NCBI GenBank assembly: GCA_012729225.1
Contig: JAAYDO010000071.1
Location: 1 to 34,572, forward strand
Direction of reading: 5' to 3'
DNA from: Bacteroidales bacterium
GTDB lineage: Bacteria; Bacteroidota; Bacteroidia; Bacteroidales; Bacteroidaceae
DNA: 34,572 nucleotides
Shown: piece after piece, positions 14,770 through 34,572 of the stretch
Layout of the letters: each line of letters begins with the position of its first letter
Position numbering within the stretch: position 1 is the stretch's first letter
Made by a program: the position numbers and the translations under genes
The notes under the pieces: generated by a model
The model's database searches: none
Told to the model about the DNA's origin: nothing
What the model saw: only the letters and a program-made list of their open reading frames with translations

Positions 14770-14895
14770 CGTTATGCCACCTTCCTTGCTTTATCCCTAA
14801 ATTGGTCATTGGATCATCGTTCCATCCCTATCACAAGGAAATCCGATGTCTTTAGGAAAGAACATCTCGAAGGCATTTCGAAGGCTTCTTGAAGA

Positions 14896-15306
14896 AAAAT
14901 ACTGTAATTCAAGGGGCATTTGCCTACTGTGTAAAGAAGGGTGAAGAGATTCTGGCACGTTTTATCGCAGAACGAGTCTTGCAAGAAAGTGAGCGATGTT
15001 ATCCCTGCATCCAAAAGCCCACATATTTTCTTAAAAGACAATAATTTATGAATGCCATATAGCACCATGCTTGTGAGGTCAAAAACGCACCATTGTTCGT
15101 TGGTCATCGCACCATTGTTCATGGGCTCTTGAAGCATTGTTCGTTGCTCATTGAACCATTGTGCGTTGGAGCTTGAAAAACGCTTCGGGCACGCGAGATG
15201 TAAAGTGGCAGGGGAATCCTGCCATTTCATCCTTACGTACACCTGCTTTTATTTATCCCTCCTAATAATAGGGTCAGGGCTTGGTGAATTTGTTGAATTT
15301 GCGTTA
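14896..15306 (+). repeat. Dispersed intergenic repeat, copy A
   Basis: About 410 bases that align with copies at 21069-21513 and 34039-34505. Left part shares ATTCTGGCACGTTTT with copy C. At 15087-15177 lie four imperfect 22-25 base units built on CACCATTGTTC and ending in (C)TTGAA or CATC. TGGCAGG (15206-15212) then pairs with CCTGCCA (15218-15224), and CCCT...AGGG near 15268-15283 forms a second hairpin. Together with terminators it fills the 700-base gap between the convergent porin and MFS genes. A minus-strand reading frame of 142 codons crosses it, but the 22-base units and a frame break in copy C argue against a protein. Edges are approximate. Confidence 0.8.
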
Positions 15307-20545: not shown

Positions 20546-20560
20546 TTTTTGATAAGGATC

Positions 20561-21005
20561 TGTGGTTAAATACAGTTATTAATATTGTAGCATTTATAAC
20601 ACACTGCTCTATGACAGTTAGCATCGAGTTTGTGTTTCATAGACTACTTTTGATTTCACGATTGCAAAGTTCGGCATTATTTTTGATAAAACAAAATTTT
20701 ATTTTTTCTACATTTTTTCACCGATACTCTAAACACGCATTATTCAGTCATTTACGTTATCATAGATAAACATAGTGTTGTTTCATGTTGCCATTTTCCT
20801 TTCAGATGATTTTCAGAGAGATATGTAAATTCCTTTTGTGTAAAAGACTCAGGTTTTATCCTTCTGGAAAATCCTTAACTCGTTCGTCTCTACACATTTA
20901 AATTTATTTTCTCTCGGAAGAATAATGCCTGTTTGTTGTTTAGACTAAATTTAAATAAACGGTTATCCTTGTCTTTAATCGGATGGCAATATTATTGTAC
21001 GAAAG
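20561..21005. other. AT-rich region upstream of dnaA, possible origin (weak)
   Basis: This gene-free stretch is AT-rich (notably 20681-20720 and 20920-20960). It holds one near DnaA box, TGTGGTTAA at 20561-20569 (one mismatch to TGTGGATAA), and two half-matching TTATCC sites near 20858 and 20963. No cluster of exact boxes is present, so an origin here is only a possibility. Confidence 0.25.
20665..20695 (-). promoter_or_regulatory. Promoter of dnaA
   Basis: On the minus strand, TTTG (20692-20695), exactly 19 bases, then GAACTTTG (20665-20672) followed by C: one mismatch in the -7 TAnnTTTG element. The leader would be about 110 bases. Confidence 0.6.
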
Positions 21006-21068
21006 TTCTATTGAACATGAGTTAGGCATGTAGGGAAAATGAAGCAGTTGTTTTCAATTGTTCGCACA

Positions 21069-21513
21069 TCAATCATACTCTTTCCTTTCATTTTTTTGTA
21101 AAAATTCATGGGTGATTTAATAGATGTATGACTTCTGTGGAAGAAAGATAAAGCAGTCTTGACAGGTTTTGTCAATGGGTTGCTCTTTCTGGAAAGTAGA
21201 TGATGCGACCCTATCTCCTGCAAACTTTATACCTCATTAATTAACAGCGAATGATGAATAATCTGAAATCTAAGAATTATGAGAACGAAATGCACGCATG
21301 GTTCAATGGTCATCGCACCATTGTTCATGGGCACTTGAAGCATTGTTCGTTGGCCATTGAACAATTGTTCGTTGAAGCATGAAGAATGCTTCAATCAGGT
21401 GAGGATTCAAATGGAGGGGAAATCCTGCCATTCCATCCTTGCGCACATATACTTTCATTTACCTTCCCCTGACAATAGGGGTAGGGTGTGATGACTTTAT
21501 TGAACTCGCCTTA
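21069..21513 (+). repeat. Dispersed intergenic repeat, copy B
   Basis: About 445 bases related to copies A (14896-15306) and C (34039-34505). It opens with TCAATCATACT as copy C does. Four imperfect 22-25 base CATTGTTC units occupy 21292-21383. The first hairpin (21410-21432) has lost one base of its 5' arm, while the second is intact as CCCCT...AGGGG near 21465-21480. Its right end reaches the stop codon of the MCE gene (21511-21513). A 71-codon minus-strand frame (21008-21223) overlaps the left part but shows no family features. Edges are approximate. Confidence 0.75.
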
Positions 21514-22410
21514 TTTGTTTTTTCTTCCAAACAGAGAGAAGTGCACATATCTCTTAGGATTAAGACGTAGGTCTTCCATCAGTTTGGAGGAATTCTGCAC
21601 GGTCGAGTCAAGATGAAGGGCAATGGAGTTGTCATTCATTAGCATGCCAAGCGAATTGTCCTTACTGTTCATGGCTGTGTTGATCTTGAATGTCATGTTC
21701 TGAACACTTTCAAGTGTGGCATCTGCTTTCTTTGCCATTCCTACCATGTCAATCTGATTGAGATTGTTGGTCGTTGTCTCAAGATTAGAGCAGATATTGT
21801 TGGTTTTAGCCATGAGTTGTGGCACGTCCTTGCCGAGTAGTCCATTGATTTGCTTCGTGGTGGTGCGGAACTCTGTAGTGAGAGCCTCCATGTTGTGGAT
21901 GGAGGTCTTGATAGATGGGTCGTTGGCAAGTGTGTTGATAGCCGTGAGGATAGAATCCATCTTAGGCAGGAGAGCCTGCACTTGAGGAATCATGTCGCCT
22001 GCTGCCGTCATGAGATCAACCATCGGAACACCTTTGATTGTGTCTCCAGGTTGAAGTATATCAGAAGGATCAGAACCCAAACGAAGATTCATCATAGCAG
22101 AGCCAAGCATCTCTTTAGTCATATAGACAGTGGTGCCTCTTGGAATCTTGAAGTTAGGATTGATGGTGATCTCTACAGTGAGGTCCTGACGGCCAGGATT
22201 GAATTGAATGGCTTTAACTGTACCAACTTTCAGTCCGTTGGCACGCACATCAGAAGCTGTTGGCATGCCCATCACGTCGGAAACCTCTACGTAGTAGGAA
22301 ACTTCATCATTAAACAGTTTGAGCCCCTTGAGGAATATGGTGCCTACATAGATGATGACGGCTGACAGTACAGCCACTGATGCTATCTTGATTTCTTTGC
22401 TGATTTTCAT
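21511..22410 (-). CDS. MCE/MlaD-family lipid transport protein
   Basis: A 299-residue protein with one N-terminal membrane anchor (about residues 8-28) and an MCE domain (about 36-115) with VRANGLKVGTVKAI (55-68) and the GSAMMNLRLG region (102-111). The rest (about 120-290) is helical with coiled-coil character (Gln/Asn/Thr-rich), as in MlaD-like proteins that form hexameric rings or tubes between the membranes. Relatives act as the periplasmic part of ABC systems that carry phospholipid. The ATPase (MlaF) and permease (MlaE) genes are not adjacent. It is 33 bases downstream of the amidase gene and likely in the same transcript. Confidence 0.92.
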   Translation of the reverse strand: MKISKEIKIASVAVLSAVIIYVGTIFLKGLKLFNDEVSYYVEVSDVMGMPTASDVRANGLKVGTVKAIQFNPGRQDLTVEITINPNFKIPRGTTVYMTKEMLGSAMMNLRLGSDPSDILQPGDTIKGVPMVDLMTAAGDMIPQVQALLPKMDSILTAINTLANDPSIKTSIHNMEALTTEFRTTTKQINGLLGKDVPQLMAKTNNICSNLETTTNNLNQIDMVGMAKKADATLESVQNMTFKINTAMNSKDNSLGMLMNDNSIALHLDSTVQNSSKLMEDLRLNPKRYVHFSLFGRKNK

Positions 22411-33430: not shown

Positions 33431-33491
33431 GGCATTTATTCCGAGACTATGGGAATGTTTTGACTTTTTTTCTTTCTTTACATGTTTTTTT

Positions 33492-33523
33492 CTTGTAGGA
33501 AACAAAACTTTGTACTAATTTTG
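33492..33523 (+). promoter_or_regulatory. Promoter of the TonB-domain protein gene
   Basis: CTTG (33492-33495), 20 bases, then TAATTTTG (33516-33523): one mismatch in the -33 element. Transcription would begin near 33530, so the ATG at 33551, not the upstream ATG at 33482, is the start. Confidence 0.6.
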
Positions 33524-33550
33524 AACCACGAACAACAAAACAAACATCAT

Positions 33551-33985
33551 ATGCGACAGTTGATATTCTTATTGCTGCTCATGTCAGCCACATCGTTAAG
33601 AGCCCAATTCCACTTTGATTTTTCACCTCGCAGAACTCAAGAGGAACAAAGAAGAGAGACGTTTACTCCACCTCAATTCAAGGGTGGTGAATCTGGCATT
33701 ATTTCTTATATTAAAAAGAAATTTGAGCAACCTGAAGAACGTGAAGAGCGAGACGGCAGGATTATTGTGGCTGTCCTTGTTGATGCCAAAGGAAAGGTGG
33801 AACAGGCACAAATAGTGCGTTCCGTCTCTCCCACACTGGACCAAGAGGCACTTCGGGTGTGCAAACGCATGAAATTCAAACCCGCCAAGCAGGGGAATAA
33901 AAAGGTGAAAGGTAGAATAGACATTACTTTCCCAATAAGAAGGGGACGATTGTCATTCAACAATCTGCCGACCATTGATGTGTAG
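33551..33985 (+). CDS. Secreted TonB C-terminal-domain protein
   Basis: 144 residues from the ATG at 33551, chosen because the upstream ATG precedes the promoter and the inner start opens a clean signal peptide (1-18, Leu-Arg-Ala before Gln). The mature chain has a basic/Glu-rich segment (25-68) and a TonB_C fold (about 69-131: GRIIVAVLVDAKGKVEQ, ALRVCKRMKFKPAKQG, ITFPIR). Unlike true TonB it lacks a retained inner-membrane anchor and Pro-rich arm, so it cannot transmit ExbBD energy by itself in the usual way. Similar free TonB_C proteins are common in Bacteroidales; their role is unclear. Transcribed divergently from the IMP cyclohydrolase gene. Confidence 0.85.
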   Translation: MRQLIFLLLLMSATSLRAQFHFDFSPRRTQEEQRRETFTPPQFKGGESGIISYIKKKFEQPEEREERDGRIIVAVLVDAKGKVEQAQIVRSVSPTLDQEALRVCKRMKFKPAKQGNKKVKGRIDITFPIRRGRLSFNNLPTIDV

Positions 33986-34038
33986 GAGATTCTTCTTGAA
34001 CATGGAATCATAAGGCTTTTTCATCCTGATTCTCCATT

Positions 34039-34505
34039 TCAATCATACTTCTTCCCTTCTATTTTTCGCCAAAATGATGGGCGATTCAAAGGGTATTTTC
34101 CTACAGTGCAAGAGGGACAAAACGATTCTGGCACGTTTTGTCTCTGAACGACTCTTGCAGGAATGTGAATGGTGTCATCCTTATATCTAAGAATCTACAT
34201 ATCTTCTTCAAGAACAACGATTTATGGAAACCACAGAGTGCCATGCTTATGAGGTCAGAAACGCACGCATGGTTCATGGGTCATCGCACCATTGTTCATG
34301 GGCACTTGAAGCATTGTTCGTTTGCCATCGCACCATTGTTCTTTGCCCATCGCATCATTGTTCGTTGGAGCATGAAGAACGCTTCGAGCATACGAGATGA
34401 AAAATGGCAGGGAAATCCTGCCATTTTATCTTCACACACGCCTGCTTTTATTTACCCTCCTAATAATCGGGGTAGGGTGTGGTAAATCCGTCTAACTCAC
34501 GTTGA
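34039..34505 (+). repeat. Dispersed intergenic repeat, copy C
   Basis: About 467 bases related to copies A and B, and the best preserved. GACAAAACG (34116-34124) pairs with CGTTTTGTC (34134-34142) around ATTCTGGCA. Five imperfect 19-25 base CATTGTTC units occupy 34263-34376, one more than in A and B. AAAATGGCAGG (34401-34411) pairs perfectly with CCTGCCATTTT (34417-34427). TTTACC...GGTAAA encloses the second C/G hairpin near 34450-34487. It fills the gene-free stretch from 33986 to the end of the window. A 115-codon plus-strand frame crosses it and is judged non-coding. Edges are approximate. Confidence 0.8.
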
Positions 34506-34572
34506 TTTTTGGTTCATCCCCGAATTGCGTTGGTTTTGTCATGCAATCCGAGCAGTAGTAGATTGAAGTATT

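Follow-up and report, generated by a model that had tools for sequence, protein, structure and literature searches.

An intergenic repeat family of a Bacteroidaceae genome, very likely an IS982-type MITE, with a conserved internal array of 22-bp dyads

In a stretch of 34,572 nucleotides from the genome of an uncultured gut bacterium of the Bacteroidaceae (the window), three similar blocks, here called copies A, B, and C, lie outside genes, and each contains a short tandem array. What kind of element do they represent, and why has the array been kept? The original prediction had described them as an undescribed, dispersed intergenic repeat family and had named a REP- or MITE-like element, a structured RNA, and a termination or insulation element as candidates.

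Copies in the genome and their position relative to genes

Copies A, B, and C could be aligned over their whole length, with an identical order and orientation of parts and a mean column identity of 76% (n = 3), and Tandem Repeats Finder returned a period of 22 for all three. The copies are thus homologous, as predicted, with a unit of 22 bp instead of the 22 to 25 bases assumed. The predicted limits of the blocks were near those obtained with a profile, except that copies B and C start 55 bp earlier (Table 1). A search of the source genome (2.89 Mb in 213 contigs, 88.8% complete) with copy C gave at least 50 matches with an E value of ≤0.001 when 40 of 197 candidates were scored (a set that did not include copy B), and these were counted as at least 40 places, including copy C itself. 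A 117-position profile built from the tails of 36 copies (R1; E values of such models are rough) gave 139 matches with 150 of 1,070 candidates scored. Subtraction of 11 opposite-strand shadows, counted by hand, left about 128 places, a density of one per 23 kb. Indeed, the family is large, dispersed, and intergenic and not confined to the three copies of the window, and its parts keep their order over about 500 bp.

Ninety-eight copies were worked on, i.e., the 3 in the window, 38 other places found with copy C, and 57 further R1 matches with at least 47 bits. The full-element profile alignment had 99 rows, since it held a weak second row in locus L145 that was left out of later counts; the left end was reached in 31 rows, the right end in 63, and both in 25. 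Among the 23 two-ended copies that were examined for target duplications, 21 were 481 to 546 bp long and the remaining two 327 and 335 bp. A coding region was ruled out by the 22-bp unit and the varying unit number, and no Pfam match was obtained with the longest frame of copy C (34138-34485, 115 amino acids), in agreement with the prediction that the repeat does not encode a protein.

Table 1. Coordinates of the three copies and their parts in the window
Feature	Position	Strand	Remarks
Copy A of MITE, left part missing	14904..15304	+	Full-element profile positions 104-528 of 529
Copy A array block (lead altered, not parsed)	15082..15180	+	Block profile match
Copy A TGGCAGG hairpin, 1 mismatch to consensus	15204..15226	+	
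Copy A right terminal repeat, 4 mismatches	15287..15305	-	
Copy B of MITE, both ends recognizable, site empty in relatives	21014..21511	+	Full-element profile
Copy B left terminal repeat, 6 mismatches of 19	21014..21032	+	
Copy B array block, 100 bp	21287..21386	+	Block profile
Copy B TGGCAGG-type hairpin, 2 mismatches, one arm broken	21410..21432	+	
Copy B right terminal repeat, 4 mismatches of 19, overlapping mlaD stop	21494..21512	-	
Copy C of MITE, begins at stop codon of TonB_C gene 33482-33985	33984..34502	+	Full-element profile
Copy C array block, 122 bp	34258..34379	+	
Copy C TGGCAGG hairpin, agrees with consensus	34403..34425	+	
Copy C right terminal repeat, 2 mismatches	34485..34503	-	

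The copies strongly avoid divergent promoter regions. With genes called by our own codon-score caller (which overlooked one or more genes, among them the TonB_C gene preceding copy C), only 2 of the 98 copies overlapped a called gene. Within 300 bp, a gene 3' end was faced by 66 of 72 right ends and by 44 of 57 left ends. When both neighbors were within 300 bp, 32 copies stood between convergent genes and none between divergent genes, and between tandem genes 9 copies had one orientation and 2 the other (P = 0.065). Stricter gene calls gave convergent, divergent, and tandem counts of 23, 0, and 7 versus 1 or of 19, 0, and 5 versus 0; with looser limits, the counts were 35, 2, and 15 versus 3 (P = 0.0075). 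Thus, the bias toward one orientation between tandem genes is only suggestive. In the window, copy A lies between convergent genes, copy B at the stop codon of mlaD, and copy C at that of the TonB_C gene. A tandem repeat of an 11-bp unit of the CATCTCGAAGG type adjoins copy A on the left (14863-14894), at the missing left end, and sequence like it also adjoins left-truncated copies in loci L146, L178, and L023. In locus L034, near position 2018, a copy stands directly 3' of a tRNA-like sequence (judged by eye), with a hairpin that extends into the element; in the window, ARAGORN found no tRNA.

Ends of the element and its mobile relatives

Comparison with relatives argues for insertion of copy B. 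The gap between mlaD (PF02470) and a dnaA-like gene, whose name was assigned from sequence alone, is 965 bp here versus 359 to 387 bp in 26 of 28 genus-mates, so that these relatives have no insertion where copy B lies. The exceptions were 479 bp in G015, where inspection by eye showed no array, and 596 bp in G044, where the start assignment ran into the gene. Ten of the gaps were also aligned; loci L278 to L304 largely repeat the same genomes and were not recounted. In relatives, mlaD is followed by a hairpin (GTTGTTATTTGAATTTTGTTCAAACAACAAC); its counterpart in the window (20546-21013) appears, by eye, to be weakened, and copy B now stands between it and mlaD.

According to the original prediction, the repeat had neither a terminal inverted repeat nor a target-site duplication. 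Terminal repeats were hidden with three copies alone and became visible because full copies were aligned: the outer ends are inverted repeats, with AACGTGAGTTCGACGAATT as the left consensus and AACTCACGTT as the right terminus. Copy B has both ends, copy C has the right end, and copy A has the right end, its left part being gone. The end pattern ACGTGAGTTYGAYGAA was present with up to 2 mismatches at 62 + 48 sites in the genome, compared with 8 + 2 for the reversed control. Nine of the 18 exact end sites were close to contig ends, and the contigs with these nine sites break off within an insertion sequence (IS) that bears the ends of the MITE; this is expected, since identical young copies break an assembly. 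PF13612, the model of IS982-type transposases, matched above the cut-off at three places in the genome, two of them beside MITE-type ends, and the broken IS982 genes on contigs C183 and C131 adjoin such ends. Two of the three transposase fragments scanned also matched NF033520, with scores below the cut-off of 130 bits because the sequences are fragments. A full-length IS with such ends was found in three genus-mates (G006, G008, and G011), the lengths of the three elements being 1,041, 1,050, and 1,053 bp. Of the 45 genomes of the genus, including the source genome, 22 matched PF13612 (18 above the cut-off) and 35 contained the 18-base end pattern.

Target duplications were also found in some copies. 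Among the 23 two-ended copies, 4 had duplications of at least 5 bp (TAAGACA, TATGTTTA, TTAAAATA, and TGAAT), whereas 0.8 was expected from mispaired flanks; the excess was reached in only 0.5% of 2,000 shuffles. The other 19 had no duplication of this length, and the mean length of direct repeats at the junctions was 3.13, compared with 2.10 for mispaired flanks. Of the three full-length ISs in relatives, only the one in G011 was flanked by a duplication (AAGAT, extended to TAAGATA when the outer A and T are included). ISPi1 of Prevotella intermedia, a relative of ISPg3, makes a 7-bp target duplication (PMC4755523).

Inverted ends, target duplications in some copies, and ends shared with an IS982-type IS bear out the suggestion that the family is MITE-like. 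We consider it very likely that it is an IS982-type MITE, most copies of which have decayed. The copies would be non-autonomous transposons of about 480 to 545 bp that an IS982-family element (ISPg3/ISPi1-like) with the same terminal repeats formerly mobilized in trans. Survivors would now be found at the 3' ends of genes because an insertion is least harmful there. As side observations, loci L065, L067, L068, and L073 of the source genome have the same IS982-type start with a different interior and are perhaps further MITE families, and loci L184, L181, and L167 hold truncated copies beside an IS982 remnant or the end of another element, i.e., nested insertions.

REP and BIME elements are palindromes that occur outside genes in more than 100 copies with regular spacing and serve as protein binding sites; the element described here resembles them in copy number and in its regularly spaced palindromes but has IS982-type ends. 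Like BrickBuilt of Porphyromonas gingivalis, it is an intergenic, noncoding MITE with an internal array, IS-like ends, and few host species (PMC4596501). BrickBuilt, present in 19 copies in strain ATCC 33277, has 23-nucleotide direct repeats between a leader and a tail, and its ends resemble those of a resident IS (PMC4596501). Its AGAYCATARTATCCTCTCRTRTG unit and GAGACCTTTGCA-type ends differ, when compared by eye, from the 22-bp CATTGTTC unit and the ACGTGAGTTCGA-type ends found here, and the accessible text of PMC4596501 does not report an array whose conservation exceeds that of the arms. The ends of two other P. gingivalis elements, ACGTGAGTTCGA... of MITE239 and ...TCGAACTCACGT of MITE700, are nearly identical to the ends found here; according to the same source, both elements are without a mini- or microsatellite, unlike the MITE here, and ISPg3 is the IS with matching ends (PMC4596501, Table 2). 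ISPg3 is placed under IS5 there, whereas the partner IS found here matches IS982 models. PINSR of P. intermedia, a 188-bp repeat found 177 times in one strain and 184 times in another, is likewise intergenic, thought to be noncoding, and confined to one lineage but, compared by description only, is reported to be without terminal inverted repeats (PMC4755523). An IS982-derived MITE of Cardinium is also lineage specific and thought to be maintained by an IS982-family partner; an internal array, as found here, is not mentioned in the accessible part of that report (PMC9769881). The family itself was not described in the accessible text of PMC5771137, PMC10969869, or PMC6989115. The family was absent from the literature searched, and to that extent the label "undescribed" applies to it, but elements of its kind have been described in Porphyromonas and Prevotella.

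The conserved internal block

The block consists of a lead, AAAACGCACGCATGGTTC, and 22-bp units (CATTGTTC) built on GAAC-N4-GTTC-like dyads. In the 57 copies chosen only by their tails, mean pairwise identity was 0.85 in the lead, 0.78 in the units, and 0.82 in the last unit; to the left it was 0.63 at the left end, 0.57 in the left arm, and 0.52 just before the block, and to the right it was 0.63 in the hairpin, 0.53 in the tail, and 0.58 at the right end. Since these copies were picked by the tail, the conservation of the block cannot stem from that choice. In the other 41 copies, identity was 0.81 to 0.85 within the block and 0.57 to 0.71 outside it. The lead was found at 102 sites in the genome with up to 3 mismatches, 50 of them exact, with no site for the reversed control, and the best 18-mer of the block was exact in 30 of 55 complete alignment rows, compared with 2 of 31 for the best one outside the block.

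The register was kept as well. In 72 of the 73 copies in which both anchors were found, the block was 56, 78, 100, 122, or 144 bp long, and register-breaking indels were present in 1 of the 73 blocks, compared with 14 of 34 for a 135-bp piece of the left arm and 23 of 35 for a 92-bp end piece. Deletion runs in the profile alignment were alike in the block (0.76 per 100 bp, lost whole units included) and in the arms (0.66 per 100 bp), and no block could be parsed in 26 of the 99 rows, including copy A.

If the MITE were neutral and its minisatellite homogenized itself, by exchange of units between copies or by recopying through slippage, the register would also be kept. Indeed, the number of units differs among copies and linkers also occur inverted, so recombination acts on the block; distances in the block barely correlate with those in the tail (Spearman coefficient, 0.07, versus 0.24 for left arm and tail), and a minisatellite within a MITE has a precedent in BrickBuilt (PMC4596501). 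However, conservation is highest in the lead, a sequence that does not repeat the units, and identity rises sharply at the edge of the block, from 0.52 to 0.85. Moreover, no two of 39 blocks were identical, the best pair agreed in 94% of positions, and only 1 of 741 pairs shared a tract of at least 50 identical consecutive bases, which speaks against recent conversion. We regard self-homogenization as rather unlikely; the block is probably constrained, and its near-unchanged state amid decay suggests that the cell still uses it.

Could the block act as RNA? RNAalifold gave no consensus pair for 36 tails; with 39 blocks, the plus strand likewise had none, and 5 weak pairs were predicted for the minus strand. 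The TGGCAGG hairpin was 82% paired, a value reached by 107 of 500 shuffles, and had 6 doubly changed pairs versus 3.2 in shuffles, with 40 of 500 as high, which is a weak signal at most. Nested pairing of the four units amounted to 62.4% and pairing of the neighboring units 3 and 4 to 72.9%, values that 486 and 490 of 500 shuffles, respectively, reached as well. In favor of a dispersed structured RNA or a regulatory RNA gene, the consensus folded better than its shuffles (z = -6.2), but single blocks folded barely better than shuffled ones (mean z of -1.25 and -1.05 on the two strands; 25 of the 39 blocks). A known RNA family was ruled out: no Rfam match reached its gathering score, and two low matches were far beneath theirs. 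With no consensus structure in the tail or the plus-strand block and with pairing below nearly all shuffles, the predicted structured RNA was not borne out, and we consider this explanation very improbable.

Termination or insulation, also suggested originally, fits the position at gene 3' ends, but a simple scan detected no terminator-like site around copy B (20900-21600) or copy C (33900-34572). In its most specific form, the array would be a (possibly bidirectional) intrinsic terminator that insulates convergent genes, with self-complementary neighboring units pairing and with A and T tracts at the borders that would let it act in both directions. In keeping with this, TTTTT follows the array of the source genome on the minus strand, and in two of the other genomes described below the right border was T rich: among the 8 bases right of the array, 5 to 7 were T in 9 of 9 arrays of G174, and at least 5 were T in 5 of 9 arrays of G298. 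Most of these arrays also fold into long hairpins. However, the arrays of G015 and G265 are without such border tracts, and the pairing of units is not kept in the source genome, as described above. An intrinsic terminator thus appears improbable. A sigma-70 scan found 1 site around copy B and 2 around copy C, with shuffle means of 2.1 and 1.4; a promoter-like TTTG...TATGATTG was seen by eye within the left arm.

The 22-bp register, which is about two helical turns, the absence of conserved RNA pairing, and the conservation at the level of sequence fit a protein-binding array. The lead and the 22-bp units would have been under sequence constraint in place while the remainder of the element decayed, the array would offer candidate binding sites on one helix face to a DNA-binding protein, and the putative protein would mark or block the ends of transcription units. 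For this reading as a whole, i.e., an IS982-type MITE with an array that persists as a DNA-level site at transcription unit ends and is probably bound by protein there, we see the chances as evenly balanced. That binding of a protein at such ends is the reason for the constraint on the block is plausible, with doubt slightly exceeding belief.

MITEs are usually read as debris. If the reading of a retained, protein-bound array is true, a MITE segment that has survived the loss of its own ends at about 100 loci, in exact helical register, would mean that a bacterium keeps mobile DNA for its own use on a genome-wide scale. The family also supplies concrete targets, the 18-mer and the 100-bp block, in gut bacteria with a little-explored chromosome biology.

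Distribution of the family and 22-bp arrays in other genera

The MITE appears to be restricted to this species, as far as the searches reach. The R1 profile had no match in 300 other genomes of the family from 30 genera (12 candidates scored per genome, with stricter filters), a DNA search of 44 genus-mates gave a single match of 48 bp (in G023), and an exact search with a 20-mer that was present without mismatch in 18 of 41 copies gave none in a GTDB set of 84,980 species, from which records near the source genome may be absent. Neither plasmids and phages (searched with 301 bp of copy C) nor IMG/VR (20-mer) gave a match, and at three viral matches to an 18-bp linker motif, no array was present. 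The prediction had pointed to related Prevotella genomes. By MlaD, the named relatives, at best 82% identical, are mostly metagenome-assembled genomes from the rumen or other gut sites, and the nearest of them are mostly labeled Bacteroidaceae, Bacteroidales, or Prevotellaceae and are not named Prevotella species.

The profile of the block alone (R2) reached further. In the source genome it gave 172 matches, many of them mere pieces (150 of 1,400 candidates scored), and weak matches (E ≤ 0.001, at best 41 bits) came from 52 genomes among the 398 others of the family that were searched, with 10 candidates scored per genome. Twelve of 30 genera were matched, the source genome being counted. An array was visible in 9 of 14 loci whose middles were inspected, and 40 further stretches from six genomes were examined with Tandem Repeats Finder. 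The period was 22 in all loci of G174 (9/9), G298 (9/9), and G265 (6/6), in 3 of 6 loci of G177, and in 1 of 6 of G135; in G015 it was 21 (4/4). The dyads were genome specific, with GAACATATGTTC in G174, CGCACCGTGGTGCG in G298, and GGAACAATGGTTCC in G265, and the linker GTTGGCACTT of G174 is one of the three commonest linkers in the source genome, too.

In G174, the inverted repeat GGTTCTTCTGCAATTTGGTTGAAA (accepted with up to 9 mismatches of 24, background windows having at least 10) was present on both sides of the array in 5 of 9 loci, with spans of 162 to 175 bp, on one side only in 3 of 9, and on neither side in locus L214. The G174 loci (L208 to L216) appear as inverted-repeat elements of about 162 to 175 bp with four GAACATATGTTC dyads. 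Identity in their arrays was 0.86, compared with 0.26 to 0.73 beside them, in loci that had been found through the array.

The arrays in other genera may be homologous to the block of the source genome or may be convergent. Taken together, they could belong to a Bacteroidaceae class of chromosomal sites in which several dyads in a strict 21- to 22-bp register, with genome-specific half-sites, are recognized by a lineage-specific protein that organizes transcription unit 3' ends, but we put this forward only tentatively. Equally speculative are two further parts of the same reading, that such sites are kept as their carrier elements decay and have been spread by MITEs of different transposon families and that the putative protein serves termination, supercoil relief, or chromosome folding. 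An architecture that stays the same while its letters differ from genus to genus would suggest a common process with a fast-changing recognition code. Neither an array that outlives the ends of its MITE nor cross-genus 22-bp dyad arrays were found in the literature searched, which was mostly without subscription papers. In the window itself, units like TTCGATTGTTG, with a period of 11, 22, or 33, occupy positions 2493-2559 and overlap the start of the frame 1456-2511; this array is perhaps another of an 11/22-bp type.
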